Assembly (NCBI GenBank): GCA_020052615.1
Contig: JAGVOT010000046.1
Span: forward strand, 1-61,464
Source of the DNA: Nitrospirota bacterium
GTDB taxonomy: Bacteria > Nitrospirota > UBA9217
Reading direction: 5' to 3'
Length of the DNA stretch: 61,464 nucleotides
The position numbers and the translations under genes were made by a program. The first letter of the stretch is position 1. Every line of letters begins with the position of its first letter. The notes beneath the pieces were generated by a model, which was given only the letters and a program-made list of their open reading frames with translations, had not been told where the DNA came from and searched no databases. Shown one piece after another: positions 9,501 through 43,193 of this stretch.

Positions 9501-12500
9501 TCAGTACGCCCTCCACAGGTCCAGTGTCGCCCGCGACGTCTGGAACCCGAATTCCCGCATCGCCCCGGCGTATGCGCTCTTGAGCGCCGGCTCGCCGTTG
9601 ATCTCCTCCACGGTGATCTTCGAAAGCGGCCGGAATTCCCTCCCCAGCATATCCTTGAACAGCCCGAAATACCCGCTCAGATGCGGATCATCCACAGGCA
9701 CACGGATGTCCAATGCCTTTCCGAGCCGCTTCGAGACCAGGACCAGCCTGCTGCCGTGGTAAACGAGATGGGTCGACGCAAGCCTCGGCGGCAGCTGCGG
9801 CCTGAGCGGCTCCGGCGCCATGCCGCAGAGCGACGCGGGATCGGCGGCCGAGAGCCAGTAAACAGCGTCACGCGGCAGAGAATCCTGGATCATGCGGAAG
9901 GCCTCGTGGGATATGAACTGAAGGCCCCGGATGTCCCTGAAGAACCAGCCGGACAGCACCTCGCCGGAAAGCTCCATCAGCCTGAGCGCGCGGATGACCT
10001 CCCGCCACTGAAGCAGCGGCAGTTCGTTCGACAGCAGCTCGCGGAAGAGGATGCCGTACCGCCTCAGCAGCTGCCGCACGCGGTCCTTCACCAGCTCGTC
10101 GGCCGCGATGACGTCCCTTTCCCCGGCATCATCGGCGTCGATCCTCTGCCAATGGCCTTCCATGGGCCGCGAGACCTTCCACCGGTCGAATCCCGAACGC
10201 CGCGAACCCGAGACCGTTCCGTCGGCCACGGCCTTCGCGTTGAAGCCTGTCACGATGCCTTTCCGTATGGTTCGGAAGGAATCGCTCGTCACGTTCCCTT
10301 CCCATGCCTGCTGCCACAGAAGCTCCGCCGCTTCCTTGCTGTCGAGATGGGCCGTATCGGCGATCTCGAGGAGGCCATACTTCCCGCGCCGGTCGGGAAG
10401 GAGGTAGCTAAGGCCGGCGACGAGTTCCCGCTCCTTTTCGGCCACGGTCGCCCGGAAGAGCTCAAGGTCCTGCCGGAACGCAAGGCTCAGCCGTTCCCTG
10501 CCGCTCCCGAACCAGATGAGCTCGCTCTCAGCCATGAGCTTGTCGAGCCACTCGCCCCGGTAGGGATGCATCCGGCTGGGAAGGATGCTCTCCTCCCACG
10601 ATGACGCCGGTGCCGGCCATCCGAAGAGCTGCTCAATGCGCTGCTGCAGGTCTTCCCTGGTCTCGCCGCGCCGGACGATCCCCTGGTACGCCGCGAGGAA
10701 GAGCGGCAGGTCCCCGACGGCCAGCGCCTCGAAGGACGGCTGGCGCCGTCGCCGCGCCATGCGGAGCAGCATTTCGAGGTTCGCGCTGTCGCACAGCTCC
10801 TCCTCCGTGCTTGTTTCGCTGAACCGGTCCATGACCAGCTCCTGCGCCTCGACCAGTTCCTCGATCGCCGGCTCCAGCCGGTCATCAGGCAGGCCGAGCA
10901 ATGACCCGGCCCGGGACCGTGCGATCGGCCCGTAGTACGAGAGCCAGCTCGAGAGCAGGCCGGCAAGGCCCGTCTGTTCGGAGTCACTCTCTTCCTGCGG
11001 GCGTGGTTTCTGCTTAAGGAACTGCTCCACACGCTTGCGCACACCCCGCCCTGCCGGTGACGATGTGTCTTCCGACAAGGCGACCTGAGTGAAGCTCATG
11101 TCATCGAGGCGCATGCCCATATCCTTGATCAGCCGCGGCACGGTCTCGAGCGCTGCAAGCAACCGGTACTCCGCGCCCTCCCAGGAAACCCAGAGCAGTT
11201 TCGGTTCCTGCTCTGCGAGCCATGCGGGGCCGTCGCCGCCGTCGCCTGCTATTGCCCCGGCAAGTTCCTGCCACTCCGGTTCAGGGACCAGGAGCCGCTC
11301 CTTGACCCAGTCGAGCAGTTCGACCGCCGATCCCGGAGCGTATCCCGGCGCTGTGCGCTTCAGCTTCCGGTCAAGGACCGCGATGACCTCCACGGGAACC
11401 TTCGGCCTCAGGTGGGACGAGAAGAGCAGCTCGCGGACCAGACCGGGCCGCAGGCCGGATCCTCTGGTCGTGAGCGGCGTGTCGTCGGCATACATGGCCG
11501 CGTTCGTCTGCTTCCAGACAAGGTTCGAGGCAAAGGGCGAGGCCGCGGTCGTCGAACATTCGGAGAGGTTGATCTCGCGGTCATCGAGCTCATCGAGCAC
11601 CTGTTTCAGCCGTTCCAGGTCGAACTCGTCCCTGAGGCAGGTGCGCCACGTCTCGATCAGGATCGGGAAGTCCTGCGTATCCCGGACCGCCTCGAGCAGC
11701 CGCTTGGACCTGAGCCGGATGAGCCAGAGCGGCATCCTGCGTTTGAAGCTCGTCTTCGGCAGCAGCAGCGCCCGCTCCGCGTTCTCCCGGAACCGGCCGC
11801 CGAAGAACCCGGTCTGCTCAAGCTTCTTCCTGAGCAGGCCTTCCACGTTCGCGGAGGTCACGAGCCCCAGGAGGTCCCGGCTCGGGATGTCGTGCGGCAG
11901 CATGAGCGACAGGGCATCGTCGTTCACGACGATCGGGAGCGGATAGCGGTATTTCTCCTCCCACGCGGCGGCAAGCGCCAGGGCAAACGGCCGGTTCACC
12001 CTGCCGCCCCAGAGCGTGTGAAGGATCACCTGCTTTGCCTCGGCCTGTGCTGCCGGCTCGTTCACCCGTTCGATCAGGAGATGATGGCGGTGCGGCAGAT
12101 TCGCACCCGTTGCCTCGCGCTGCCGCCTGAGGAAGGCCAGGAGTTCCTCGCCCGCATCCCGGTCCAGGGAATACCGGTCTACCAGTTCCTTCAGGAACGC
12201 GTCGTCCCCCAGGCGGGGATCGGCATGTTCGAGGAAGAGGCCGATCCGCTCGGAGAGATGGAAGTCGCGGTTCTGCTCCTCGGCGCGCCAGAAGGGGAAG
12301 ATCCCCTGCCCGCCCCGGGTCGGCGCGACCAGCACGTCGTTGTGCGTGATGTCCTCGATGCGCCAGAGCCGGGACCCCAGCGTGAAGGTCTCGCCGATGG
12401 AGCGCTCCCACACGAACTCCTCGTCCAGCTCGCCGACCTTTGCCTTCGAGTCCTTCAGCCTCAGGTCGAAATAGCCGCGCTCCGGGATCGTCCCGCCGGA

Positions 12501-13997
12501 GCTGTACAGCAGGAAACGCGCCTCGTCCCGCGCCTGCACCGTGCTGTCCACGCGGTCGATCGAGACGCGCGGTCTCAGCTCCCGGAGCCGCGATTCGGCA
12601 TACCTGCCGCCGAGCATCTCGAGCACCAGGTCGTACTGCCGCCGCGGAAGATCGTGATAGGGCCGGCTCGTCAAGAGGAAGTCATACAGTTCGTCAATGT
12701 CCCAGGTCTCCATGGCCGTCATGGACAGGATGACCTGCGCCAGCACGTCGAGCGCCCCCTCGACCGGGCGCACCTCCTCGATGTCCTGCTCCGCGACCAG
12801 CCGCGCCATCACCGCGGCGTTCACCATGTCCATGCCGTGGAGCGGGAAGAGCAGCCCCTTGCTCGCCTCGCCCACGGAATGGCCGGAGCGGCCGATCCTC
12901 TGGAGCGTCGACGAGACCGAACGGGGCGTCTGGATCAGGACCACCTGGTCGAGGCTGCCGATGTCGATGCCCAGCTCCAGCGAGTTCGTGGCAACGATGG
13001 CCTTGAGCTCGCCGTGCTTCAGCTTCTCTTCCACGGCGAGGCGGATCTCGCGCGACAGCGAGCCGTGGTGCGCGTACGCGATGTCCGCCGGTTCGTTCTC
13101 GTTCAGGAACCGGGTGACCTTCTCGGTGGTACGCCTGCTGATGGCGAAGAAGAGCGTGGAATTGTGTTCTGAGATGATCTTTTTGAAGGACCGGGTGAGG
13201 GCGGGCCAGATGCCGTCCTCGCCGCGAATGTCACCGGTTTCAGCCGGCAGCGACACGCGAAGCTCGTATTCCTTCGGAGCCTCGGAACGGATGATGGTCA
13301 CCGGCCTCGGCACGTAACGGCTGGCAGGACCCCTGCCGGTCCTCAAGAAGCCGCCCACGAACGAGGCGACCCGTTCCAGGGGATTGACCGTCGCGGAGAG
13401 CGCCACGCGCTGGAACTCTCCCGAGAGCGGGACCAGCCTGTCCACGGCAGTGATGAGGTGCGTGCCCCGCTTGCCGTCCACCACGGCATGGATCTCGTCG
13501 AGGATGACCGTCGCGACGCCCGTGAGCATGGTCCTGCCGCTTTTCGACGAAAGGAGAAGGTTCAAGGACTCGGGAGTGGTGATCAGGATCTCGGGCGGCC
13601 GCCGGATCATTCTGCGCCGTTCCTCGCCCGGCGTGTCCCCGCTCCGGGTCTGGACCGCGATGTCGGGGAACGTTTCGCCTGCCTGCTCGAAATGGGACCT
13701 GAGCGATGCAAGCGGCAAGAGGAGGTTCCTGCGCACATCGTTGTTCAAGGCCTTGAGCGGCGAGACGTAGAGCACCCGCACCCTGCCGGAAGGCCATGCG
13801 CCGGTTACGAGCTGGTTCAGGGACCAGAGAAACGCGGCCAGGGTCTTGCCGCTTCCCGTGGGAGCGGTCACGAGCACATGTTTCCCGCTTGCGATCTCCG
13901 GCCAGGTCTTGAGCTGGATGTCCGTGGGTTCGCCGACCGAACCGGCAAACCAGGAACGGATGAGAGGATGGAATTTGGAAAGTCCGTCTGCTGCCAT
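9501..13997 (-). CDS. lhr: Lhr-type large DEAD/H-box helicase
   Basis: This is a very long (~1498 aa) superfamily 2 helicase. Motifs seen from the N-terminus: IQLKTWPEI (Q motif), APTGSGKTLAAF (Walker A), TTPESLNLLL, LDEIHAVVDGKRG (DEIH Walker B), ALSATVNP (motif III), and IQTPRSVSSTLQRIGRSGHS (motif VI). The long C-terminal extension is typical of bacterial Lhr helicases with the extended C-terminus, which translocate 3'-5' and act in DNA repair. The start at 13997 (MAADGLSKFHPLIRSWF) follows a GAGG; an in-frame ATG at 14018 is an alternative. It stands alone and converges with the zinc-ribbon gene. Confidence 0.93.
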   Translation of the reverse strand: MAADGLSKFHPLIRSWFAGSVGEPTDIQLKTWPEIASGKHVLVTAPTGSGKTLAAFLWSLNQLVTGAWPSGRVRVLYVSPLKALNNDVRRNLLLPLASLRSHFEQAGETFPDIAVQTRSGDTPGEERRRMIRRPPEILITTPESLNLLLSSKSGRTMLTGVATVILDEIHAVVDGKRGTHLITAVDRLVPLSGEFQRVALSATVNPLERVASFVGGFLRTGRGPASRYVPRPVTIIRSEAPKEYELRVSLPAETGDIRGEDGIWPALTRSFKKIISEHNSTLFFAISRRTTEKVTRFLNENEPADIAYAHHGSLSREIRLAVEEKLKHGELKAIVATNSLELGIDIGSLDQVVLIQTPRSVSSTLQRIGRSGHSVGEASKGLLFPLHGMDMVNAAVMARLVAEQDIEEVRPVEGALDVLAQVILSMTAMETWDIDELYDFLLTSRPYHDLPRRQYDLVLEMLGGRYAESRLRELRPRVSIDRVDSTVQARDEARFLLYSSGGTIPERGYFDLRLKDSKAKVGELDEEFVWERSIGETFTLGSRLWRIEDITHNDVLVAPTRGGQGIFPFWRAEEQNRDFHLSERIGLFLEHADPRLGDDAFLKELVDRYSLDRDAGEELLAFLRRQREATGANLPHRHHLLIERVNEPAAQAEAKQVILHTLWGGRVNRPFALALAAAWEEKYRYPLPIVVNDDALSLMLPHDIPSRDLLGLVTSANVEGLLRKKLEQTGFFGGRFRENAERALLLPKTSFKRRMPLWLIRLRSKRLLEAVRDTQDFPILIETWRTCLRDEFDLERLKQVLDELDDREINLSECSTTAASPFASNLVWKQTNAAMYADDTPLTTRGSGLRPGLVRELLFSSHLRPKVPVEVIAVLDRKLKRTAPGYAPGSAVELLDWVKERLLVPEPEWQELAGAIAGDGGDGPAWLAEQEPKLLWVSWEGAEYRLLAALETVPRLIKDMGMRLDDMSFTQVALSEDTSSPAGRGVRKRVEQFLKQKPRPQEESDSEQTGLAGLLSSWLSYYGPIARSRAGSLLGLPDDRLEPAIEELVEAQELVMDRFSETSTEEELCDSANLEMLLRMARRRRQPSFEALAVGDLPLFLAAYQGIVRRGETREDLQQRIEQLFGWPAPASSWEESILPSRMHPYRGEWLDKLMAESELIWFGSGRERLSLAFRQDLELFRATVAEKERELVAGLSYLLPDRRGKYGLLEIADTAHLDSKEAAELLWQQAWEGNVTSDSFRTIRKGIVTGFNAKAVADGTVSGSRRSGFDRWKVSRPMEGHWQRIDADDAGERDVIAADELVKDRVRQLLRRYGILFRELLSNELPLLQWREVIRALRLMELSGEVLSGWFFRDIRGLQFISHEAFRMIQDSLPRDAVYWLSAADPASLCGMAPEPLRPQLPPRLASTHLVYHGSRLVLVSKRLGKALDIRVPVDDPHLSGYFGLFKDMLGREFRPLSKITVEEINGEPALKSAYAGAMREFGFQTSRATLDLWRAY

Positions 13998-14233: not shown

Positions 14234-16435
14234 CTAGTTTCGCTGTTTCGTGAAGGACTGACGGAGCGACTGCAGGTCGGTCTTCTCCTCCTTCGGCGCC
14301 GGCCCCTTCTTCATCGTCAGTGCGATCCGCTTCCGCTTCACATCGACCTCGCGTACGGTGACCGTCACGTGCTGATGGACCTTCACGACCTCGTTGGGGT
14401 CCTTGACGAACCGGTCGGCAAGCTCGCTGATATGGACCAGGCCGTCCTGGTGCACGCCGATGTCCACGAACACGCCGAACGCGGCGATGTTCGTCACGAT
14501 GCCGGGAAGCGTCATTCCCGGCGACAGGTCCTCGATCTTCGATACCCCCTCGGCAAAGGAGAACGCTTCGAACTTCTCCCGCGGGTCCCTGCCCGGCTTG
14601 GCAAGCTCCTTCATGATGTCCTGGAGCGTGGGGAGACCGACAGCCTCGGTCACATAGCGACTGAGGTCGATCTTCCTGCGGAGGCCTTCGTCCTTCATCA
14701 GGTCGCGGACCGAGCAGTTCAGGTCCCTGGCCATGGCATCGACCACGGGATAGCTTTCAGGATGGACGGCGCTCGCGTCAAGCGGGTTCGTCGCCGCATG
14801 GATGCGCAGGAACCCGGCAGCCTGTTCGAAGGTCTTCGGACCGAGCTTCGGGACCTTCCGGAGCTCTTCGCGGGAGCCAAAGGGCCCCTTCGCGTTCCGA
14901 AGCTCCACGATGCCCGCGGCAAGCTGCGGCCCGAGTCCCGACACGTACATGAGCAGCTGTTTGCTTGCCGTGTTCACCTCGACGCCCACGGAGTTCACGC
15001 ACGACTCGACCACGTCGTCGAGGCTTCTTTTGAGGGCGGGCTGGTCAACGTCATGCTGATACTGCCCCACGCCGATGGACTTGGGATCGATCTTGACCAG
15101 CTCCGCCAGGGGGTCCATGAGCCGCCTGCCGATGGAAATGGCGCCGCGCACCGTAACATCGTGATCGGGGAACTCCTCGCGCGCCACATCGGACGCGGAA
15201 TAGACCGATGCTCCGTTCTCGCTCACCATGACGATGGCGATGGACTTCGCAAGGCCGAGACGGCGAATAAAGGCCTCGGTCTCCCTCCCGGCGGTGCCGT
15301 TCCCGATCGCGACTGCTTCGATACTGTACGTCGCGCACATTTTTAAGATCGTCTCCCCCGCTTCCGTTGCCCCCTTCTCATTAAAGAGCGGAAAGATCGT
15401 TTCGTTATGCAGGAGCTTCCCCTGCTGGTCTATGCAGACAACCTTGCAGCCCGTGCGGAACCCCGGATCGATGGCAAGGATGTTCTTTCTCCCCAGGGGA
15501 GGCGCCAGCAGGAGCTGGCGGATGTTCCCGGCGAAGACCCTGATGGCCTCCTCATCGGCGCGCTTCCGGGTGCTGAGCCGCATCTCCGTTTCCAGGGAGA
15601 CCGACAGGAGCCGTTTATATCCGTCATGTATTGCAAGCCGCACCTGCTCCGTTGCCAGGCCCGTGCTCTTCAGGAACTGTGATTCCACCATGGCCAAGCC
15701 GTCCGCTTCGGGAGCGACGATACGCATGAACAGGAAGCCCTCGTTCTCGCCCCGGCGCATGGCGAGGATGCGGTGCGACGGCGCCGAGGCAACAGGCTCC
15801 TCCCAGGCGAAGTAGTCCTTGTACTTGATCCCCTCTTCTTCCTTTCCCGTGATGACCTTCGACCGGAAGATCCCCTTTGACGCGAACAGCTCCCGTACGC
15901 GTCCGCGGGCGACAGGGTCCTCGCTCATCCATTCAGCGATGATGTCGCGCGCCCCCGCGAGGGCGTCGTCGGTGCCAGCCACTTCCTTTTCCGGATCGAT
16001 GTACGCGGCAGCCTCGGCAAGGGGATCCAGGGCCGGGTCCTGGGCGAATATCTTCTGTGCCAGCGGTTCGAGACCTTTTTCCTTCGCTATCGTCGCACGG
16101 GTACGCCGCTTGGGGCGGTAAGGAAGATAAAGGTCCTCGAGGACGGTCAGCGTCTCAGCTGCAAGGATGTCCGCATTGAGCTTGTCCGTGAGCTTGCCCG
16201 ATTCCTCCAGGGAACGAAGGATGGCTTCGCGCCGCTTTTCCAGCTCCCGCAGCTGAGTGATCCGGTCGCGGACAGCGGCGACCGCGACCTCATCGAGCGA
16301 GCCCGTCGCTTCCTTCCGGTAGCGCGATATGAACGGCACGGTCGCGCCTTCATCAAGGAGTGCTACGGTTGCCTGGACTTGCTTCGGGGAAATATGGAGT
16401 TCGCGAGCGATACGAGCAACATGGTCTTCGGTCAT
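14234..16435 (-). CDS. tex: Tex-family RNA-binding transcription accessory protein
   Basis: Start MTEDHVARIARELHISPKQV at 16435 matches the family N-terminus; upstream in-frame codons are ignored. The product is ~733 aa. Seen in order: helical N-domain (FISRYRKEATGSLDE), YqgF/RNase H-like domain (LAIDPGFRTGCKVVCID, IAIGNGTAGRETE), helix-hairpin-helix region (LGPQLAAGIVELRNAKGPF), and a C-terminal S1 domain (GMTLPGIVTNIAAFGVFVDI). Tex proteins bind nucleic acid and transcription complexes. It is monocistronic. Confidence 0.96.
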   Translation of the reverse strand: MTEDHVARIARELHISPKQVQATVALLDEGATVPFISRYRKEATGSLDEVAVAAVRDRITQLRELEKRREAILRSLEESGKLTDKLNADILAAETLTVLEDLYLPYRPKRRTRATIAKEKGLEPLAQKIFAQDPALDPLAEAAAYIDPEKEVAGTDDALAGARDIIAEWMSEDPVARGRVRELFASKGIFRSKVITGKEEEGIKYKDYFAWEEPVASAPSHRILAMRRGENEGFLFMRIVAPEADGLAMVESQFLKSTGLATEQVRLAIHDGYKRLLSVSLETEMRLSTRKRADEEAIRVFAGNIRQLLLAPPLGRKNILAIDPGFRTGCKVVCIDQQGKLLHNETIFPLFNEKGATEAGETILKMCATYSIEAVAIGNGTAGRETEAFIRRLGLAKSIAIVMVSENGASVYSASDVAREEFPDHDVTVRGAISIGRRLMDPLAELVKIDPKSIGVGQYQHDVDQPALKRSLDDVVESCVNSVGVEVNTASKQLLMYVSGLGPQLAAGIVELRNAKGPFGSREELRKVPKLGPKTFEQAAGFLRIHAATNPLDASAVHPESYPVVDAMARDLNCSVRDLMKDEGLRRKIDLSRYVTEAVGLPTLQDIMKELAKPGRDPREKFEAFSFAEGVSKIEDLSPGMTLPGIVTNIAAFGVFVDIGVHQDGLVHISELADRFVKDPNEVVKVHQHVTVTVREVDVKRKRIALTMKKGPAPKEEKTDLQSLRQSFTKQRN

Positions 16436-16933
16436 CAATGGTCCCCGTTCATGGGTGGAATAGAAGCGGGGCATAATAGCATGAGGTGGGCAATGAGTAA
16501 AGAACAACCGGGAAAGGAGCGAAGCGCTTCCTGCCTGATGAATGGCGTCAAAATCGGAGAGGTCAGAAGTCCGGTGGGCTTTTTGCTTCCTTCACGGTCC
16601 GGCTCGGAATGCAGTGCGTGTAGATCATTATCGTGATCGCTCGTTCACCTGTCAAGCACCGGAGTTCCATTTTAACCTACCGATCCAACCCTGGGCCAGC
16701 CTTTCAGTGCAGCAGTACCATTGCGTTCATTCATCAGCAAATCGATTGACCCATTACAGCCATCTATGCTACTGTAATTTTGAACTGATGATATTGTGCG
16801 TTTGAAGTACTACCAGCTAATCTCGCACCACAGAAGTCGAGCATTATTATTGTGGGCCGGTAAAGAACGGAAATTCGTGTTTTACTAGCCGCACGCGGCT
16901 AGATAATCACTGGTTGAACAAAGGAATACGCCG
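16436..16933. other. AT-rich intergenic region with an 18-bp palindrome
   Basis: No convincing gene is visible in these ~500 bases. Base composition turns distinctly AT-rich from about 16640. A palindrome, CTAGCCGC-AC-GCGGCTAG (16885-16902), lies 31 nt before the first small ORF. It may be an operator, or the boundary of the acquired segment that follows. Confidence 0.5.
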
Positions 16934-17203
16934 ATGACTTGGAATCGCTCACTGTCATTGATAGTCACCATTGCATATGTCTTATTTTTTATAATCGATA
17001 GCAGCAAGAATTTGTGGCTTATTATGCTCGCATTTTTAATGCTACCCCTCATGTGTATTTGGTTCGGTGACGAGCTTGGTGATTTTACAGGTCTTGGACC
17101 GCACCTCATATATATTTCTAATTCCTCGCCAGGACTTTCAATTCGGATCATAGGGTGGGTCTTATTGTTAATGCCCGGTGCTGTCCTGTATTTATGGAGA
17201 TAG
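16934..17203 (+). CDS. Small AT-rich membrane protein (cassette 1, ORF a)
   Basis: This 89-aa protein is highly hydrophobic, with three likely membrane segments (LIVTIAYVLFFII, LIMLAFLMLPLMCIWFG, IIGWVLLLMPGAVLYLW). AAAGGA lies just upstream. Codon use is AT-rich and unlike the neighbouring GC-rich genes, which indicates acquisition. The next ORF begins 7 nt later. No family was recognised. Confidence 0.6.
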   Translation: MTWNRSLSLIVTIAYVLFFIIDSSKNLWLIMLAFLMLPLMCIWFGDELGDFTGLGPHLIYISNSSPGLSIRIIGWVLLLMPGAVLYLWR

Positions 17204-17210
17204 GATTACT

Positions 17211-17474
17211 ATGTTCCTATTGATCGTAGCTTCCGTTTCATGGATTATTTCAGCATATTGCCTCTTCAACATTTGGAGAGGTAAATCTCCCTTGTTGAAG
17301 AAGTTACTATGGTCTGCAACTCTATTATGCCCCGTTCTCGGTCCTTTAGCTTATGGGGGGCTCTTTGTGCCTCAAACAGAACTACCAGCTGACTTGAGAG
17401 CGCCAGAATACGATCAAACGCGTCATGGTTTGGGCGACAACTATGATGCTCATCCCCCTGAACACCATCACTAA
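17211..17474 (+). CDS. Small membrane protein with His-rich tail (cassette 1, ORF b)
   Basis: This 87-aa protein starts at ATG 17211. It has a first TM (LLIVASVSWIISAYCLF), a second hydrophobic segment (LLWSATLLCPVLGPLAYGGLF) and a soluble tail ending HPPEHHH. The WSATLLCPVLGPLAY stretch loosely resembles phospholipase-D N-terminal-like or cardiolipin-synthase leader segments, but no catalytic domain is present. It is AT-rich like its neighbour and ends 13 nt before the first attC-like site, the spacing expected for an integron gene cassette. Confidence 0.6.
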   Translation: MFLLIVASVSWIISAYCLFNIWRGKSPLLKKLLWSATLLCPVLGPLAYGGLFVPQTELPADLRAPEYDQTRHGLGDNYDAHPPEHHH

Positions 17475-17486
17475 TTGATGCAATAA

Positions 17487-17546
17487 TTACAACTAGGCGC
17501 TCGACGGCGACGCGCCAAAGGGCGGCGCGTCAGCGCCGCGTTAACC
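17487..17546 (+). other. attC-like (59-base element) recombination site 1
   Basis: A 60-bp imperfect palindrome: a 7-mer ending AAC (17487-17493), stem GGCGCT/AGCGCC, inner stem GACGCGCC/GGCGCGTC, an unpaired CGACGGC on one side only, and a final GTTAACC (17540-17546). One-sided extrahelical bases and the AAC..GTT ends fit integron attC sites, although both terminal 7-mers depart from the RYYYAAC / GTTRRRY consensus. Confidence 0.6.
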
Positions 17547-17723
17547 CTGAAGGAGTCCCGGAACCTCGCTTGTCTTCATCAAACCTGCAGTGACGGCAAT
17601 TGCGTGAACTATTTTCCTAAAAACCTCCTTGTTAAAACGTGATGCAATTTAAAACCCGGAGAGATCAACTTGCTGGTTATATGTGTGGTAAACTTTTATC
17701 AACTCAACACAAAGGAGGCTCCT

Positions 17724-18074
17724 ATGCATTACGTCGATGGATTTGTGATACCGGTACCGAAGAAAAACCTGAGAGTCTATGTCCGAATGGCCAGGATGGG
17801 AAAAGAGATGTGGATGAAGCATGGCGCCATCGATTAAAAGGAGTGCGTCGGGGAGGACCTGGAGAACAAGTGGGGGACGACTTTTTCACGAATGATGAAG
17901 TTGAAACCCGGCGAGACCGTGGTTTTCTCCTGGATCGTTTACAAGTCCCGGGCGCACCGCGACCGCGTCAATGCAAAGGTGATGAAAGAGATGGAAAAGA
18001 TGAGCCCGAAGGAGATGCCCTTCGACATGAAACGCATGGTGTATGGCGGTTTCAAGGTCCTCGTTGACATCTAA
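17724..18074 (+). pseudogene. DUF1428 (YbaA-like) gene interrupted by one stop codon
   Basis: Reading from ATG 17724, preceded by AAAGGAGG, gives MHYVDGFVIPVPKKNLRVYV and continues to GAID, then TAA at 17835-17837. The same frame resumes KECVGEDLENKWG and runs through VVFSWIVYKSRAHRD and MPFDMKRMVYGGFKVLVDI to a normal stop. YbaA-type proteins have an aromatic residue at the interrupted position (..Y.EC..ED), so a single change of TAC or TAT to TAA explains it. Everything else looks intact at 116 codons, so inactivation is recent, or the base call is wrong. It lies between the two attC-like sites. Confidence 0.8.
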
Positions 18075-18099
18075 TACAAAAGCGGAAAGATTTGTTACA

Positions 18100-18175
18100 C
18101 CGTCTTTGCGCGCAAGCGCGGCGATCTCGTCGTAAAATACGAGATTGCTTCGTCGCGATGCTCCTCGCAATGACA
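18100..18175. repeat. Palindromic repeat, TCATTGCGAGGAGC family, copy 2
   Basis: The right arm is GAGATTGCTTCGTCGCGATG followed by CTCCTCGCAATGAC; the left arm (..GCGGCGATCTCGTC) is degraded. It is followed at 18222-18252 by a second, unrelated hairpin (TCGGGT..AACCCGA). Both lie inside the second candidate cassette, between its gene and its attC-like site. Confidence 0.7.
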
Positions 18176-18255
18176 CAAAATGTAGTGCGTTTGCAGCAAG
18201 CCCGTTATTTAATAAGTCGGTAGGTCGGGTAGAACGAAGTGAAACCCGACAATGA

Positions 18256-18317
18256 TTCTAACGAGGCGGGTCCACAGCGCCGCGCCAGAAGGCGGCGCGT
18301 GACCCGCGTCGTTGCTC
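18256..18317 (+). other. attC-like recombination site 2
   Basis: A 62-bp imperfect palindrome with the same plan as site 1: TTCTAAC (one mismatch to RYYYAAC), outer stem GGCGGGTC/GACCCGC, unpaired CACAG on the left only, inner stem CGCCGCGCC/GGCGGCGCG, and end GTTGCTC. The core GCGCCA..GGCGGCGCGT is shared with site 1. It lies 47 nt before the ATPase gene. Confidence 0.6.
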
Positions 18318-18364
18318 CGACAGCGGCTGACGTATCATTCTCTGCAGCACCAGCTGAAGCTACC

Positions 18365-18904
18365 ATGCGAATAGCAATTTCCGGCACTCACTTTTCTGGA
18401 AAGTCATCGCTCGTTGAAGCGTTGTCCGAAGCCCTCCCACGGTATACAACCGTCGAGGAGCCCTACCGCCAATTACAGGATGAGGGATACGACTTTGCAG
18501 AGTTTCCCTCGATCGAAGATTTTGAACTGCAGCTCGAGCGCTCCCTCGAGGACCTTTACGAGAGCCCGCCGAACGTCATTTTCGACCGATGTCCGATCGA
18601 TATCCTGGGCTACCTTCTCTCGCATGCCGACGCTGAAGCGTTCGACCTCGATGCCTGGATGCCGCGCGTTCAAACGGCGGTTCGCAAACTTGATCTCGTG
18701 GTATTGCTATCCATCGAAGCGCCTGACCGGATAGTTCTGCCTGTGTCGCAGGACGCTGTCTATAGACAACGCGTGGATGAAATTCTCAGGGAGATGGTCC
18801 TGGAAGATCCATACGGCCTTGATGTGGACGTGCTGGAGGTCAACGGCAGCGTGCAAATGCGGGCGAAGCAGGTGCTGACGTATATTCGCAATAAGGACCA
18901 CTGA
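18365..18904 (+). CDS. Small P-loop ATPase / kinase-like protein
   Basis: This 179-aa protein starts with a P-loop strand, MRIAISGTHFSGKSSLVEAL (Walker A GTHFSGKSS). It continues with a DRCPIDILGYL segment typical of nucleoside-kinase-like folds, and LDLVVLLSIEAPDR as the next strand. It resembles NadR/AAA-type small kinases of unknown substrate. It begins 47 nt after attC-like site 2 and would be the third cassette gene. No clear attC follows it. Confidence 0.75.
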   Translation: MRIAISGTHFSGKSSLVEALSEALPRYTTVEEPYRQLQDEGYDFAEFPSIEDFELQLERSLEDLYESPPNVIFDRCPIDILGYLLSHADAEAFDLDAWMPRVQTAVRKLDLVVLLSIEAPDRIVLPVSQDAVYRQRVDEILREMVLEDPYGLDVDVLEVNGSVQMRAKQVLTYIRNKDH

Positions 18905-19041
18905 TGCATTGAAATCCCGGAAACAACAGATCGTCCCGCGCGATCGCTGAGCGGGTGTGAACTCGCTCGTTATGAAATAGAAAACGGCGGCCGATGAGGC
19001 CAACCTTCGCGTTTTCCTTCGATTGTCCTGCCCGTTCCGGG

Positions 19042-19794
19042 CTACTTCCCGAACACCTTCTTCAGCAGGTCCGTCACCCGGGCCACCGGGTCCTTCCTGA
19101 TCTTCTTCTCTTCCTGCCCCAGCAGGTAGAACAGCCCGTCCAGCGCCTTGCTCGTCACGTGGTGGTCAAGGTCCAGTGACCCGTCCCTGATGAGTTTGGT
19201 CTTTTTCGCCTTTTCGACCAGGTTCGCATAGGCCTTCGTGACTCCCACGGACATAACGGCCTGGGTCACGGTAGGCTTGAAGGACGCGTAGAGCTTTTCG
19301 TAGGTCTTCGACCGCATGTAGTCGGTTGCCGCGGTATCGCCTCCCTGCAGGATGTTGATGGCGTCGACGATGGTCATCTCCTTTACGGCGCCCACGAGGA
19401 TGTCCTTCGCCTGCGGCGCCGACTTCTCGGCGGCCCGGTTCATGGTCACGATGAACTCGTCCACCTGCTTGGAGAGACCGACCTTGCGGAGCGGCTTCTC
19501 GACCTTCTTGACCTTCTCGGGCAGCGGGATCTTGATGGCCGGGTTCCTGAGATACCCGTCTATCTGTGAACCGGCCTTCACGGCGTTCTGCGACCCGATC
19601 GCGAGGGCCTCCTTGAGGCCCGCGGCCACCGTGTCCTTGTCCAGCGTGGTTCCGGCCTGGCCGGCCGAAGCCGCCGGCTTGGCCTTGTCCTTGTTCAGCA
19701 GCGATTTTGCCTTGTCCAGCAGATCGGCCTGGGCCGGGGCACCGAGGCACAGGACAGCTGCAATGATCATGACCCCGAACGTCGTGCTGCGCAT
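19042..19794 (-). CDS. DUF4197 exported protein
   Basis: This 250-aa protein has a signal peptide (MRSTTFGVMIIAAVLCLGAPAQA, cleavage after AQA) and a helical mature part. LKEALAIGSQNAV, YLRNPAIKIPLPEKVKKVEK and VVDAINILQGGDTAATDYMRSKTYEKLY-type stretches match DUF4197. The family is periplasmic and of unknown function. A GGAGG-type site precedes the start. The C-terminus is intact. It is monocistronic, with an ATTCGTG repeat upstream. Confidence 0.85.
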   Translation of the reverse strand: MRSTTFGVMIIAAVLCLGAPAQADLLDKAKSLLNKDKAKPAASAGQAGTTLDKDTVAAGLKEALAIGSQNAVKAGSQIDGYLRNPAIKIPLPEKVKKVEKPLRKVGLSKQVDEFIVTMNRAAEKSAPQAKDILVGAVKEMTIVDAINILQGGDTAATDYMRSKTYEKLYASFKPTVTQAVMSVGVTKAYANLVEKAKKTKLIRDGSLDLDHHVTSKALDGLFYLLGQEEKKIRKDPVARVTDLLKKVFGK

Positions 19795-19839
19795 GGAACA
19801 CCTCCGTGAGAACTGTATTTAGGAACTGGATCAGCAGCC

Positions 19840-19970
19840 TTGAACGCGAATAACACGAATGGACGAATTTCACGAATAAAGGCTAACGGATATATTTCAG
19901 CAAAGAAATAGCTGCCCTGTTTTCATTCGTGTCATTCGGCAGTTATTCGTGACATTCGTGGCAAAGCTTT
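19840..19970. repeat. ATTCGTG repeat, copy A
   Basis: About 130 bp with inverted arms built from CACGAATGGACGAATTTCACGAATAA-like units on the left and TTCGTGTCATTCGGCAGTTATTCGTGACATTCG-like units on the right. It is nearly identical along its length to copy C at 23668-23792. Confidence 0.85.
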
Positions 19971-19997
19971 TTTCACCCTTGAACGGATTCAATAAGA

Positions 19998-20020
19998 ACG
20001 GCGGCCTTATCGGCCGCCGT
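19998..20020 (-). terminator. Hairpin terminator candidate after the cytochrome genes
   Basis: A perfect 9-bp stem, ACGGCGGCC / GGCCGCCGT with a 5-nt loop, lies 43 nt past the cytochrome b stop. On the minus strand it is followed by TTCTTATT, a weak U-rich tail. Confidence 0.5.
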
Positions 20021-26349: not shown

Positions 26350-26384
26350 GGAGTAGTTGGAAGGATGGTAGAAAAACGCGAGAC

Positions 26385-26738
26385 CTAGACGTCCCGCGGC
26401 TCGATGAGAAGCCGAAGCCCGTCCACGATCTGCCTGACGCGCGCCGGGGAAAGGCTGCCGATCTTCTCGGCACAGTCGGTTTTGTCCACGGTAACGACCT
26501 GGGATATGTTCACGACGCTGTCCTTTTTCAGATTCGCCTCGCCTTTTTTCAGCAGAACGTTGCCGGGAACATCGGCGCGTTTGAGGTTGGACGTCAGCGC
26601 GCAGACCACGATGGTGTTGATCCTGCTCTTGTTGAACACGTTGTTCTGGACAACCACATGAGGATGGCGGTATCGCGGTTCGGAGCCTTCGGGTTCTCCG
26701 AGGTCGATCCAGTAGATGTCGCCCTGCCTGATGCTCAC
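26385..26738 (-). CDS. MazF/PemK-family toxin
   Basis: This 117-aa protein begins RQGDIYWIDLGEPEGSE and continues HPHVVVQNNVFN, the typical first strands of MazF/PemK endoribonucleases. TIVVCALTSNL, DSVVNISQVVTVDK and a closing helix follow. The loop reads RYRHPHVV where most members have R-x-RP-x-VV, so substrate preference may differ. Its ATG overlaps the antitoxin stop by 4 nt. It should be an mRNA-cleaving toxin neutralised by the upstream partner. Confidence 0.92.
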   Translation of the reverse strand: MSIRQGDIYWIDLGEPEGSEPRYRHPHVVVQNNVFNKSRINTIVVCALTSNLKRADVPGNVLLKKGEANLKKDSVVNISQVVTVDKTDCAEKIGSLSPARVRQIVDGLRLLIEPRDV

Positions 26739-26983
26739 GAACGTTCCTTCAGGACGGTCCTGCTATACCGTTTTTTACTTTTCTGCCTGACGCTATACTC
26801 TTCGGCAGTTTCGGCGGCCGCGGATGCCTCATTGATCGCATCAAGCAGTTTCCCGGACTTCCTTTTCTCCAGGTATTCCCGCACCGCAGTGACGAACACT
26901 TCGCTCCGTGATGAGCGGCGTTCCTTCGCGACCTTCTCTATCTCCTTGAACATTTCATCAGGAACGGATATGGCTGTTTTCAT
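26735..26983 (-). CDS. Ribbon-helix-helix antitoxin
   Basis: Start MKTAISVPDEMFKEIEKVAK at 26983 (82 aa). The first ~45 residues are a ribbon-helix-helix DNA-binding domain (AISVPDEMFKEIEKVAKERR, SRSEVFVTAVREYL). The C-terminal half is charged and presumably wraps the toxin. The longer upstream frame is rejected because a consensus promoter lies there. The gene ends in a 4-nt overlap with the toxin. The operon is probably autoregulated through the palindrome described next. Confidence 0.9.
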   Translation of the reverse strand: MKTAISVPDEMFKEIEKVAKERRSSRSEVFVTAVREYLEKRKSGKLLDAINEASAAAETAEEYSVRQKSKKRYSRTVLKERS

Positions 26984-26989
26984 GAGATG

Positions 26990-27018
26990 AGTATACCATG
27001 CGGTTATACCCATGTCAA
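26990..27018 (-). promoter_or_regulatory. Consensus sigma70 promoter and operator of the toxin-antitoxin operon
   Basis: Minus strand: TTGACA (27013-27018), 17-nt spacer, TATACT (26990-26995). The -10 box ends 6 nt before the antitoxin ATG, so transcription should start at or next to the A of the ATG. The palindrome GTATA-N9-TATAC (26991-27009) covers the spacer and -10 box, a natural site for RHH autorepression. Confidence 0.7.
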
Positions 27019-27090
27019 TACCATAGAGATCCCGTCGGGAGAGCACCTTGTGAGACAATGAAGACCCGCCTCCTCGCATCTCGTTTATTG

Positions 27091-28665
27091 TTAGCGCCCT
27101 GACAGAACCGCCTCCACCGCCCGTATGGCATCGGCAGCCGAGCTCGTTATCCCGCCGGTATAACCGGAGCCTTCGCCGATGGGATACAGGTTCCTGATGT
27201 TCACTGATTCAAATTTGTCACTGCGCGTTATCTTGACGGGCGCCGACGTTCTTGTTTCAGCGCCCATCAATAGGGCATAGGGGGACACAAATGTTGGATA
27301 CGTCTTCTGCCACGCTGTAAATGCGGCCGTGAGCGACTCATTGATGAACGCCGGGAATATCCCGCGCATATCCGCCGCTGTCGTTCCCGTTGCGCAGGAA
27401 TTTTCATTCAAACCGCCCGAACCCTTCCCGCTCAGGAAATCAGGCAGATTCTGGGCAGGAACGCCCCAGGCCCCTCCCCCGGCCTGAAAGGCCTTTCGCT
27501 CGATGTCCTTCTGGAGCTCGACCCCGGCCAGGGGATCGGCCGATCGGTAATCGCCGGTCCGGCAGGTCACCACGATGGCGGCATTGGAATACTCCGATGC
27601 CCTGCGGGAATAGCTCATGCCGTTCACGACCAGCATGCCGTCTTCCGATGAAGCGTTCACCACCTCGCCGCCCGGGCACATGCAGAAGGTGTACACGCCC
27701 CTTCCTGTCGCCCGTTCGGTATGCGTAAGGGAATACGCGGCGGCCCCGATACGGTCGTAATCCTTGTATTTATCGCCATAGCGCATCTGGTTAATGATCT
27801 CCACCGGGTGCTCCACTCTTACCCCGACAGAGATCGGTTTCTGCTCAAGGGCAATGCCCTTGCCATGGAGCATCTCAACGGTGTCGCGCGCGGAATGCCC
27901 CAGCGCAAGATAGAGGCTTGAACAGTGATATTCCTTTTCTCCGTTGATGACGACGCCGACGGCAGCATGGTCCGACAGCAGGATGTCCGTCATTTTCGAA
28001 CGGTAATGGATCTCGCCGCCCTGTGCGAGGATATGGTTCCGTATATTGCGGACGATCCCGCACAGCACGTCGGTGCCCAGATGGGGCTTGCTGACATATC
28101 CTATCTCCCCGGGAGCGCCGAACTTGATGAACGTATCCAGCACCTTGTTGATATGGTCCGTGTTGATCTTCCGGGAGAACAGTTTCCCGTCGGAATAGGA
28201 GCCCGCGCCGCCTTCGCCGAACTGGATGTTCGATTCAGGATCGAGCACCTTTTCCTCGATGAACTTCCGGACATCAAGGGACCGCTCCTCGATCTTCTTA
28301 CCCCGTTCGAAGATGATCGGCTTGAGCCCATAGGCAAGAAGTTCAAGAGCGGCGAACATGCCGGCAGGGCCGAAACCGATGACGATCGGCCGTTCAGCGC
28401 TGCTGCTTGATCCCTGTTCTTTCGGGATTTTCTCGGTGTAGAGAGGAAGGTTCGCTTCGTTGGCAAAGCTGTCGGAGGTATGGACCGCGAGGGATATGTC
28501 GTAGAAGAACTGCTCTTGATCGCCCGCATCGAGCGACTTGCTCAGCACTTTGACGATGCGCAGGGTTGTCTCGCTGACGTTCAGTTTTTGTGCTGCCGCC
28601 CTTCTGTATTCATCATGCCCGTCTTTTTCAACAGGGATGCGCAAATTGCTCAGGAGTAGATTCAA
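27091..28665 (-). CDS. FAD-dependent oxidoreductase (COG2509-like)
   Basis: This 524-aa flavoprotein has an N-terminal ~85-residue cap and then a Rossmann FAD site, PIVIGFGPAGMFAALEL. Other segments are FGEGGAGSYSDGKLFSR, YTFCMCPGGEVVNAS and, at the C-terminus, LYPIGEGSGYTGGITSSAADAI, which is the second FAD-contact motif. These match the family of uncharacterised FAD-dependent dehydrogenases; substrate unknown. The start overlaps the upstream DarP-like gene by 4 nt, so the two are co-translated. Confidence 0.88.
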   Translation of the reverse strand: MNLLLSNLRIPVEKDGHDEYRRAAAQKLNVSETTLRIVKVLSKSLDAGDQEQFFYDISLAVHTSDSFANEANLPLYTEKIPKEQGSSSSAERPIVIGFGPAGMFAALELLAYGLKPIIFERGKKIEERSLDVRKFIEEKVLDPESNIQFGEGGAGSYSDGKLFSRKINTDHINKVLDTFIKFGAPGEIGYVSKPHLGTDVLCGIVRNIRNHILAQGGEIHYRSKMTDILLSDHAAVGVVINGEKEYHCSSLYLALGHSARDTVEMLHGKGIALEQKPISVGVRVEHPVEIINQMRYGDKYKDYDRIGAAAYSLTHTERATGRGVYTFCMCPGGEVVNASSEDGMLVVNGMSYSRRASEYSNAAIVVTCRTGDYRSADPLAGVELQKDIERKAFQAGGGAWGVPAQNLPDFLSGKGSGGLNENSCATGTTAADMRGIFPAFINESLTAAFTAWQKTYPTFVSPYALLMGAETRTSAPVKITRSDKFESVNIRNLYPIGEGSGYTGGITSSAADAIRAVEAVLSGR

Positions 28666-39289: not shown

Positions 39290-42200
39290 ATGCAGCTCAA
39301 GTCCCTCAACATGCTCGGCTTCAAATCCTTCTTCGAAAAGACCACGCTCAATTTCCAGGGCGGTGTTACGGCCGTCGTGGGGCCCAACGGGTGCGGCAAG
39401 AGCAACATCTCCGACGCCATCCGCTGGGTGCTGGGCGAACAGAGCGCCAAGCACCTGCGGGGCGACAAGATGGAGGACGTGATCTTCAACGGCAGCGAGT
39501 CCCGCAAGCCCCTCGGCCTTGCCGAGGTGAACCTCACGCTCACGAACGTCTCGGGACTGCCGTCGGAGTTCGGCCAGTACAACGAGATCGAGATCACCCG
39601 CAGGCTCTACCGCTCCGGCGAGAGCGAATACCTGATCAACAAGATCCCCTGCCGCCTCAAGGACATCCGCGACCTGATGATGGACGCCGGCGTGGGCGCC
39701 AAGCTCCACGCCATCATCGAGCAGGACCGCGTGAAGAAGATCATCGAATCCAAACCGGAGGACCGCCGGTTCCTGTTCGAGGAAGTCGCGGGCGTGATGA
39801 AGTACAAGGCCCGGCGGCAGGAGGCGCTCTCGAAGCTCGAGTCCACCCAGCAGAACCAGCTCCGGGTGAACGACATCCTGACCGAGGTGAAGCGCCAGGT
39901 GAACTCGCTGGACCGCCAGGCCAGGAAGGCCGAGCGCTACCAGAAGCTCCGTGGCGAGATGAAGGACCTGGAGTTCCGGCTGGCCAGCGTGGAGTACTCG
40001 AACCTGGGCCGCGAATGGACCGCGTCCACGGACGAGTTCAAAACGATCGAGGACGAGGTCACCGGGCTCCACGCCTCCCTGAGCACCATCGAAGCGGCCA
40101 TTGAAGAGACCCGCGCCGAGGCCCTGTCGTCGGAACGGGAGCTTGCTCATCTCCAGGGCCGGCTCCACGAGACCGAGAACTCCCTCCGCCAGGCGGAGCA
40201 CCGGGTCGAGATGTCCCGCACCCAGATCGCGGCGCTGACCGAGCAGCGCGGACGGGACCTGAAGGACATCGAATACCTCAACCAGGAGACCGAACGGAAC
40301 GCCGAGCAGAAGAAGCGCTTCGAGGAGGAGTCGGGCAGCATAGCGGCCTCCCTCGCCTCCCAGAACAACCTGCTCCTCGAAAAGACCGTGGCCTTCGAGA
40401 ACCTCAGCCAGGCCCTGAAGGGCAAGGAAGCCGACCTGGAAGCGGCCCGTGCAGGCGTATACACGGCCATGACCGAATCGGCCGCGGAAAAGACGCGCAT
40501 TGCGAACATCGAGTCGCGCATCCAGCATCTCGACGAGCAGGACCAGGCGGCGCAGGGCGAGTCGGACGAACTGGCGAAGAAACTGGAGGGCCTCAAGGTG
40601 CTCCTCGCCCAGAAGGAGGAGGAGATCGGCCGGACCGCCTCGCGGCGCGCCGCCCTGCAGGAGGAACATGTCCGCGTCTCCACGCGGCTCGCCGATGCCG
40701 TCGCCGGGAAAAAGACGCTCGACGAGGAGCTCGGCGCGACGAAGAACCGTCTCGCCGCCCAGAATTCCCGCCTCCATTCCCTCATTGAGCTGGAGCAGAG
40801 CCTCGATGGATATCAGAAAGGCGTCCAGACCGTCATGGCGGCGAAGAAGCAGTCCGCGTCGGACCGGGTGGGCACCATTCACGGTCTCGTTGCGGACATC
40901 ATCGAGACGGAGCCGAAATACGAAACGGCCATCGAGGCGGTCCTCGGCGACCGGCTCCAGAACGTCGTCGTCGGATCCCAGAACGATTCCCTGAAGGCCA
41001 TCGAATACCTGAAATCGAGCAGCGGCGGCCGGAGCACCTTCATTCCCGAATCGCCGCGCACCATTCCGACCGAGCCCTTCGTGAAGAACGGCCATGCCGG
41101 CGTCATCGGCAGCGCCCTGGGCGTCGTCAGGTACAAAGAGGACTACAAGAATGTAGCGCAGTACCTCCTGGGCGATGTGGTCGTCGTGGACACCATGGAC
41201 ACGGCGCTCTACCTCTTCCACAAGAACGGCATCCACAAGACGATCGTAACGCTCACCGGCGAGATCGTCGATCCCTGGGGCGCCTTTACGGGCGGCGCCG
41301 TCGAAGCGGGCGGCTCGGGCATGCTCCGGAAGCGGCGCGAGATCAAGGACCTCGAAAGCGAAGTTGCAGGGCTCACGACGCGCATTGCGGAGCTCGAGAA
41401 CACCGCCCTGACCCTGGAGACGTCCATCGGGGAGGATACGCGGTCCGAGGCACGGCTGTCCGAAGAGGTCCACAAAGCGGAACTGGAGCTGCTGCACCAG
41501 GAAAAGGACGCGGCCGCGCTCCGTGAGGAAACAGGGCGCACCGGGACGCGGGTCAACACGCTCGCTGCGGAGCTCGCCGAGCGCGCTGCCCGGCGGAACG
41601 AGTTCCGCGCTGATATCGAGCGATCCTCGACCATGCTCAAGGACCTCGAGGATGGCCACAGCAGCGCCCAGGCAAGCATCGAGAGCCTCCAGCGCGAGCT
41701 GGCCGCGGAGCGCGAACACCTGGAAAAGGCAAGGGCCGAGATCACCGAGGTCCGCATGGCGGTGACTTCCTTCCAGGAGAAGCAGGCCGCGGCCGAGAAG
41801 GGCCTCGCTGCCCTCGCCCTGACCGCGGCGGACCTTGCGGAACGGCTCCGGAAACGACAGGCCGAGATCGGCGAGATCGCCGGCAAGGTCGGGGAGTTCG
41901 AGGCCGCCATCGCCGCGGCCGAAGAGGAGATCCGCGGGAGCATCACGGTCCTCGAGCGGGAGCGTGAAGCGCTCGCCCTGAAACAGGAATCCCATGCAGA
42001 GAAGACCAGGGCGCTTTCCTCGCACGAGGAGGAGGCACGCCAGATCCGCCATGACATCGATTCCGCGCAGAAGCGGTTCTCGGCCATCGAGGTCCGGCGC
42101 ACCGAGCTCCGCATGAAGATCGAGCATCTCAAGGACAACATCTGGACCGCCTACCATACCGAGCTTGAGGCCATGGTGCAGGAGCTGGGCCAGTTCGAGA

Positions 42201-42865
42201 TCAACCTGGACGAGTCGAAACAGCGGCTCGACGAGCTCCGTCTGAAGATCGAACAGATGGGGCCCATCAACGTGGACGCCCTGCAGGAGTACAACGAGCT
42301 CAGGGAGCGCTATGACCTGCTCTCGGCCCAGCAGCAGGACATCAACGACTCCATCGCCAATCTCAAGGAGACCATCGCCAAGCTCGACGTGGAGACCATC
42401 GAGCTCTTCACCCGGTCGTTCAACGACATCCACGAAAAGTTCAAAGAGGTCTTCAACCGCCTGTTCGAGGGAGGGCGCGCGGAGCTCGTCCTGCTCGATC
42501 CGGCCAATGTCCTCGAGTCGGGCATCGAGATCATCGCCCAGCCCCGGGGCAAGAAGGTCCAGAGCATCACGTCGCTTTCGGGCGGCGAGAAGGCGCTCAC
42601 GGCGATCGCCCTGCTCTTTGCGGCCTTCCTCGTGAAGCCAAGCCCCTTCTGCATGCTCGACGAGGCCGACGCGCCCCTGGACGCCTCCAACGTCATGCGT
42701 TTCACCCGGCTGATCCGCGAGATGAGCAGCATGTCCCAGTTCATCGTCATCACCCACAAAACGGGGACCATGGAGATGGCGGACGCGCTCTACGGCATCA
42801 CCATGGACGAACCGGGCTGTTCGAAGGTCGTCTCGGTGAAGCTGCGCGAGGCGGCAATGGCGTAA
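39290..42865 (+). CDS. smc: Chromosome segregation protein SMC
   Basis: This 1191-aa condensin ATPase is full length. The N-terminal head has [20 protein letters not shown] and Walker A [20 protein letters not shown]. Two long coiled coils flank a hinge (~510-670, including [20 protein letters not shown] and [12 protein letters not shown]). The C-terminal head has the signature [17 protein letters not shown] and Walker B [13 protein letters not shown]. SMC organises and segregates the chromosome with ScpA/ScpB, which are not in this window. The D-loop DEADAPLD is slightly unusual against DEVDAALD. It has its own promoter and terminator. Confidence 0.98.
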   Translation: [1191 protein letters not shown]

Positions 42866-43107
42866 CCAAGGCGAGCGTAACCACGGGAGCTTCGCTCACA
42901 CGGGGCTGCGCCACGCGGATAAGACGTGGTCACGGTCGTAAACAGCTCAAGCTTTTCCGTGCGCGCGATCGCACCCGTGTCGCTGAGAAGCACCTATTGT
43001 TGGTCATCCGTGGCATTCTTGAAATTGTGTTTCCCCTGTCCGTGCCGCTCCTCTGCCGGCTGACTTGCCACAGACGACAGAGGACGGCTACTGGCAGTCC
43101 GTTTCAG

Positions 43108-43140
43108 GCAGGACCGGCCGTTCCGGTCCTGCTTTTTTTT
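43108..43140 (+). terminator. Rho-independent terminator after smc
   Basis: A 10-bp stem (GCAGGACCGG / CCGGTCCTGC) with a 5-nt loop is followed directly by eight T. The remaining ~240 bases between smc and this hairpin contain only low-complexity CGTAACCACGG-like sequence and no recognised gene. Confidence 0.92.
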
Positions 43141-43193
43141 AGAGCACTGCCCGGCCTTGCAATCGCTGCTCAGGCATGTTAGATTCCTGCAAC

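Follow-up and report, generated by a model that had tools for sequence, protein, structure and literature searches.

A decayed chromosomal integron in a Nitrospirota contig, and signs of many integrase-free attI sites in its family

Contig JAGVOT010000046.1 of the Nitrospirota bacterium GCA_020052615.1 (UBA9217; 135 contigs; G000, hereafter the own genome) was analysed over its full 61,464 nt, which we call the window. Between tex and a DUF4197 gene it holds an island with two palindromes of the attC type, each at the end of a small gene cassette, a conserved leader that resembles an attI site, and a short remnant of an integron integrase gene (intI). The island is AT-rich, as the initial annotation had stated, with a G+C content of 0.44 to 0.55 compared with ~0.60 around it. 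For comparison we used 14 genomes of the family together with genomes from other families; G001 belongs to the same genus and G004 to the same family, and contigs of other genomes are written in the form G001:C15. The integrase contigs of G001 and G002 correspond, by identity over 600 bp, to contigs of Nitrospiria Hainich-H41-bin277 and Nitrospirae W9_Combined_metabat2_096, and those of G003, G004 and G011 to contigs of GWC2_57_13, 4_1_July_SF_Bin20 and GWC2_57_9, respectively.

The two palindromes, for which a common core, AAC..GTT ends and one-sided extrahelical bases had been claimed, are at the places given and have that structure. They were scored with a covariance model for attC sites (R1), the seeds of which were nine sites on other contigs of the own genome with zero window sequence (alignment A2), and the attC calls rest on this own-genome model in place of the published IntegronFinder model. 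A DNA pattern for the attC core, with 40 and 51 matches versus 39 and 43 in the control, was used solely to find seeds. The structure stated for the seeds runs from outer AAC/GTT pairs through an unpaired spacer, six pairs, an extrahelical base, three pairs and a second extrahelical base to a terminal stem; the extrahelical bases tested are thus two, on the left arm only and three pairs apart. As shown in Table 1, both window sites score far above background, and the sole further matches of R1 over the 61-kb window were their opposite strands, at 13.8 and 12.0 bits. In the nine attC sites elsewhere in the genome 95.7% of the cells were paired, changes on both sides were found in 6 of 18 pairs, and the covariation score was 0.279 against a shuffled mean of 0.083, a value that none of 500 shuffles reached and that slid versions (at most 0.079) did not approach. 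Folded as single-stranded DNA, the plus strands of attC 1 (z = −2.96) and attC 2 (z = −5.21) each beat 200 of 200 dinucleotide shuffles; on the minus strand, 4 of 200 shuffles folded equally well or better for attC 1 and 0 of 200 for attC 2. The optimal fold of attC 1 alone consists of two smaller hairpins and differs from the attC fold. Both sites thus combine an imperfect palindrome, AAC/GTT ends, an unpaired spacer and extrahelical bases on one side; the feature names follow PMC8946536. A search of the window against Rfam gave zero matches.

One could envision that such hairpins are ordinary intergenic palindromic repeats, similar to repetitive extragenic palindromes or miniature inverted-repeat transposable elements, with no role in recombination, and the initial annotation had named scattered repeats as the outcome that would speak against it. 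At E ≤ 1e-3, R1 did find 30 sites on 17 contigs of the own genome, many of them single. What is scattered, however, are cassette ends arranged head to tail: among 151 matches listed from 21 genomes, all 42 neighbouring pairs spaced by under 4 kb, including 11 from the own genome, agreed in orientation, with a median spacing of 849 bp, and most attCs in the 13 single-site loci viewed lay close behind an open reading frame (ORF) on the same strand. Among the same listed matches, attC sites occurred in all 13 family genomes searched, and four of eight genomes of other families each gave a single weak match (E 1.7e-5 to 9e-4). The repeat explanation is also difficult to reconcile with the conserved one-sided unpaired bases and compensatory changes, with the position of all 21 attC matches at leader loci downstream of attI and on its strand, and with host sequence that resumes at the exchange point at three orthologous loci (both described below); we regard it as virtually untenable. 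Because a covariance model independent of the window, the shared orientation and homology to intact integrons of the same genus agree, we conclude from sequence and predicted structure that the two palindromes are genuine attC sites bounding gene cassettes. At two single-attC loci of the own genome (C41, ~26370-27200; C61, ~12038-12800) we noted toxin-antitoxin-like pairs, with a BrnT match below cut-off and a helix-turn-helix antitoxin-like protein.

Upstream of the first cassette lies the conserved ~82-bp leader that we call attI. It was recognised with a second covariance model (R2) built from 10 copies, the window copy being left out. The copies are conserved from GGCATTATTCTTGC to CACTGGTT, and similarity stops at GTT, where differing cassettes start; the window copy ends at CTGG/TTGAAC, the slash marking the crossover. 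The leader heads cassette loci and adjoins an intact intI in G001:C15 and G002:C81. The window copy stands next to the intI remnant, as attI stands next to intI in a complete integron, and is homologous to the attI region of G001:C15. It contains a 7-bp palindrome that showed compensatory changes in 10 leaders elsewhere, where 97.1% of the cells were paired and changes on both sides occurred in 4 of 7 pairs. This palindrome is situated ~11 bp ahead of the crossover, and at two orthologous sites it is altered or lost along with the cassette; it might bind the integrase or form a hairpin in the transcript.

The initial annotation reported no integrase in the window. No integrase gene is present, and no full integron-integrase gene was found on the window contig beyond a remnant, which the annotation had overlooked: the last 23 codons of an integron integrase, recovered by tblastn at 74% identity (E 1e-6) and 83% identity (E 4e-7). 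Its 46.2 bits compare with a best of 32.3 bits among 20 first-order Markov random windows. Of the eight tblastn queries, one (taken from L066) was a neighbouring ORF and no integrase; none of the reported matches come from it. Other integrase matches in the window, at E 0.16 or worse, were regarded as chance. The fossil is fused to an intI promoter that is near-identical to those upstream of intI at C101, C53, G002:C81 and G001:C15. Aligned with the intact integron of G001:C15, the window matches at 83% over the 292 bp that stretch from the end of attI to the −10 box; it then skips 1,436 bp and resumes at the last 73 bp of intI. This alignment shows that the integrase was lost through one internal deletion of ~1.44 kb, from the −10 box to the last 23 codons. 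Only the promoter and these codons are left beside the array in place of a functional intI, so that the idea of an array that was integrase-less from the outset does not hold. Remnant, attI and cassettes have the same orientation as in the intact integrons of C74 and G001:C15. A similar stub, of 17 codons, lies beside the same attI in G003:C66, and G006:C256 has a larger integrase piece.

Since attI occupies 16838-16918, cassette 1 is taken to start at 16914. The exchange points of the two attC sites, between G and TT (written G/TT), are 17540/17541 and 18311/18312, within one base of the bounds proposed earlier (17540/17541 and 18310/18311). All attC-ended cassettes read one way, away from the intI remnant. 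The two halves of the split gene in cassette 2, searched separately, match positions 1-35 and 57-102 of the DUF1428 family, both above cut-off. In a promoter scan for a cassette promoter (Pc), the attI region had no forward sigma-70-like match; a weak forward match was found at 17459, and the counts were at shuffle level. Near the end of cassette 2, a 76-bp stretch (18117-18192) that is also found in G001:C15 (82%) resembles a dispersed intergenic repeat unrelated to attC. One cassette 1 protein faintly resembles part of the region upstream of tex in G003 (40% over 47 residues), but the match falls inside a LysR-type gene read in the opposite direction and was dismissed as chance.

The initial annotation let a third cassette begin at 18311. 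The AAA_28 gene that follows attC 2 does read in cassette direction, the local G+C content is low, and the gene is rare, being absent from 12 of the 14 family genomes and otherwise occurring as a broken relative (53%) in G012, so that it might be a third cassette that lost its attC, in an array larger than two. With filters off, however, R1 found no attC behind this gene and nothing else above 8 bits in 16400-19900. The usual attC end motif is GTTRRRY; attC 2 ends in GTTGCTC, a departure expected where host sequence follows the last cassette. We therefore consider a third cassette unlikely and do not adopt it. Beyond the array, the short stretches 19897-19971 and 19994-20020 near the DUF4197 gene have further copies at other places in G001 and G002; another short repeat, at L092 (reverse complement) 2792-2825, is present in large numbers in both the own genome and G001.

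Table 1. Features of the island and its flanks (window coordinates; R1 and R2 are the attC and attI covariance models).
Feature	Coordinates	Strand	Remarks
tex, conserved RNA-binding protein gene, left flank	14234..16435	-	Pfam Tex_N, Tex_YqgF, S1, others
intI fossil, last 23 codons of integron integrase	16566..16634	-	followed by TGA 16563-16565; tblastn 74-83% identity
Fossil intI promoter, TTGACA-17 nt-GATAAT	16627..16655	-	11/12 consensus; fused by deletion to intI end
attI, conserved ~82-bp leader	16838..16918	+	crossover G16913/T16914; R2 82.7 bits, E 2e-14
7-bp palindrome CTAGCCG/CGGCTAG inside attI	16885..16902		compensatory changes in 10 leaders elsewhere
Cassette 1	16914..17540	+	attI crossover to G/TT of attC 1
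Cassette 1 ORF, 89 aa	16934..17203	+	small membrane-like protein, no Pfam family
Cassette 1 ORF, 87 aa	17211..17474	+	small membrane-like protein; weak PLDc_N-like match below cut-off
attC 1	17486..17546	+	R1 75.1 bits, E 1.5e-22
Cassette 2	17541..18311	+	G/TT of attC 1 to G/TT of attC 2
Cassette 2 gene, DUF1428 family	17724..18074	+	split by single in-frame TAA 17835-17837
attC 2	18255..18317	+	R1 72.1 bits, E 1.5e-21
AAA_28 P-loop gene	18365..18904	+	Pfam AAA_28 E 1.6e-12; cassette status unsupported
DUF4197 gene, right flank	19042..19794	-	adjoins cytochrome b gene in G001 and G002

Taken together, these features lead us to read the island at 16566-18317 as a decayed chromosomal integron, with an attI, two cassettes (the gene of the second being broken) and an integrase stub, which is likely to be served in trans; we put the probability of this reading, drawn from sequence comparison, at a little under nine in ten. 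What stands of the initial interpretation is that two attC sites bound cassettes with no working integrase adjacent, and what falls is the originally integrase-less state and the third cassette. In the ancestral plan, the integrase would have read left from its own promoter, and the attI would have been followed by rightward cassettes, each ended by an attC. The bottom strand of an attC would fold and be bound by the integrase, strands would be exchanged at G/TT with attI or another attC, and cassettes would thereby be cut out or added, a mechanism we carry over from established integron biology. Recombination at the window could now occur solely in trans, through either of two full-length integrases that are present in the same genome and that we presume to act there. 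Trans service is likely because other integrase-free attI sites of the genus hold different cassettes, with host sequence resuming at G/TT.

Alternatively, the array might have landed at a genomic site of the attG type and never have had an integrase of its own. Such insertions are described for IntI1 (cited in PMC12901181), and many single attCs of the genome lie beside ordinary genes. An attG insertion would have no attI, whereas the window has a full one together with 290 bp of integron leader that includes the integrase promoter and gene end, and this alternative is highly improbable. An assembly or binning artefact, in which a foreign contig brought in a piece of an integron, might be suspected from an assembly of 135 contigs in which the window is an entire contig. 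The island is inside that 61-kb contig, its right flank from DUF4197 to livF has 81-94% protein identity to the same-genus G001 in the same order, and the tex gene on its left is 70-74% identical to family members; an artefact is scarcely credible.

Several points weigh against our reading of the island. The intI remnant is short, at 23 codons, and the role of attI is inferred from its position and from the point where homology ends. The complete integron of the own genome, on C74, has no attI copy recognised by R2. Finally, tex was not found in G001 at E 1e-100 and the neighbourhood there differs, the right-hand part being kept, so that there is no clean empty site within the genus. The absence of the array in relatives, which the initial annotation proposed to look for, could be seen only at a greater distance. 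G004 has livF, truA, cytochrome c, cytochrome b and tex as direct neighbours, and the ~170 bp that separate the last two contain neither attC nor attI. The gene order is the same in G010, where the ~1-kb gap between cytochrome b and tex also has neither attC nor attI. The window has the island together with the AAA_28 gene and DUF4197 between cytochrome b and tex; in G003 and G012, tex is in different surroundings.

A search elsewhere in the genome, as the initial annotation suggested, yielded two full-length integron integrases above the curated TIGR02249 cut-off, on C74 (366 bits) and C101 (338 bits), as well as a broken one on C53. The C74 integrase reads away from two cassettes with attCs of the window type. 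The intI promoters at C101 (intI 89498-90433), C53 (1338-2272), G002:C81 and G001:C15 have in common the 16-bp palindrome TTGACAGGTGAACGAACGTTCACTATAMT, located between −35 and −10. The palindromic box in these promoters has the form GAAC-N4-GTTC (GTGAACGAACGTTCAC) and is eroded in the window; it presumably fits the Gram-positive LexA box type. This LexA-like palindrome suggests putative SOS control of the intI promoters.

At E ≤ 0.01, R2 found attI at 48 places in 10 of the 14 family genomes, including 8 in the own genome. Each of these eight is followed by a same-strand attC, and none has an intact integrase beside it (at C73 just 304 bp upstream are visible). Because R2 recognised no such attI at the other attC places of the own genome, which include the arrays on C66 and C132 as well as the complete C74 integron, this pattern does not cover every array. 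Among 30 attI loci with flanks, 21 of 21 attC matches, in 15 loci, were downstream and on the same strand; the remaining 15 had no attC at E ≤ 0.05 within the flank available. Of 33 attI loci inspected, five had an integrase or a remnant and two were cut by the contig end, and in 22 of the other 26 the nearest upstream ORF of at least 100 aa was on the same strand. These assignments, and the distances from attI to the upstream gene, rest on a crude longest-ORF rule, except that C36, where the rule had taken a cassette ORF, was judged by its upstream gene and corrected to 81 nt.

Judged by their upstream genes, three attI sites of the own genome have orthologues in G001, namely the pairs C50/C1, C36/C57 and C110/C78. 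The genes that follow are, as we take them from recognition of their proteins, mutS, hisS and larC, respectively. At all three sites the far-side host sequence resumes exactly at G/TT, after differing attCs (that of G001:C78 being weak by the model, at 18.1 bits and E 0.014), and a blastn comparison of the cassettes gave no match at E 1e-3. Near-side similarity reaches GTT in C50/C1 and ends earlier, before or within the palindrome, in C36/C57 and C110/C78. Cassettes have thus been exchanged at sites with no adjacent integrase, which indicates action in trans and suggests that integrases of these genomes may serve many attI docking sites. Alternatively, each orthologous site may have had an integrase of its own that was lost without trace; six attI sites start just 7 to 37 bp after the upstream ORF, which speaks against this. 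At the larC docking site, the G001:C78 cassette (41922-43384; L219) may contain a defence gene: its 422-aa product matches CAP12/Pycsar TIR weakly, below cut-off.

We lean slightly towards a wider proposal for the family, in which the integron would be distributed: a few integrases would act in trans on many chromosomal attI docking sites, mostly integrase-free and often behind a same-strand host gene, each with one or a few cassettes, and the window would be the one of the eight own-genome sites that still shows its former integrase. Transcription of the host gene could then run on into a cassette placed behind it. Should integrase-free attI sites exchange cassettes, as the three orthologous sites indicate, an integron would no longer have to be confined to one locus, and captured genes could come under the control of many host promoters within a genome. 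Docking sites with a single cassette would usually go uncounted, since they fall below the default limit of two attCs that IntegronFinder 2 sets for integrase-free arrays. The titles and abstract openings of papers listed in full-text searches, subscription papers being mostly outside this scope, gave no description of many integrase-free attI sites served in trans. The window is of value here in that it displays decay in sequence, with promoter, stub, attI and cassettes next to an intact sister copy for comparison, and one genus now offers a test of whether orphan arrays are defunct or still supplied with integrase in trans.

With its two attC sites and no integron-integrase gene nearby, the window would be counted among the clusters of attC sites lacking integron-integrases (CALINs), which are defined by at least two attC sites with no adjacent integrase gene, have been proposed to be degraded integrons and turn up in surveys about as often as complete integrons (PMC9024848). 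Unlike a generic CALIN, the window has kept its attI, and its decay is visible: the promoter and the last codons of the integrase remain, and both ends of the deletion can be located. Similar too are sedentary chromosomal integrons with inactivated intI, such as those of Xanthomonas, where an ancestral platform has kept cassettes, integrases are truncated or lost, and CALINs at seven distinct loci are read as remnants of ancestral activity (PMC12444791); here, by contrast, a conserved attI is present at many loci, frequently ahead of a single cassette, and the cassettes differ between sister genomes. Insertion at attG (cited in PMC12901181) likewise puts cassettes outside an integron platform, but the sites described here have the conserved ~82-bp attI and not a minimal genomic site. 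With a palindrome between its −35 and −10 elements, the intI promoter resembles those of SOS-controlled integron integrases (PMC3108266), although the box here, GAAC-N4-GTTC, looks like the Gram-positive LexA type. The breadth of the system is illustrated by archaeal integrons, in a paper that lists Nitrospirota among the phyla with attCs resembling archaeal ones (PMC9668308), and by taxon-specific attC models (PMC8352920), with no mention of Nitrospir- in the accessible text of that paper. The integron of the window is thus of a known kind, with an unusually clear route of decay, whereas the network of integrase-free attI sites with exchanged cassettes points to a new form of integron organisation.

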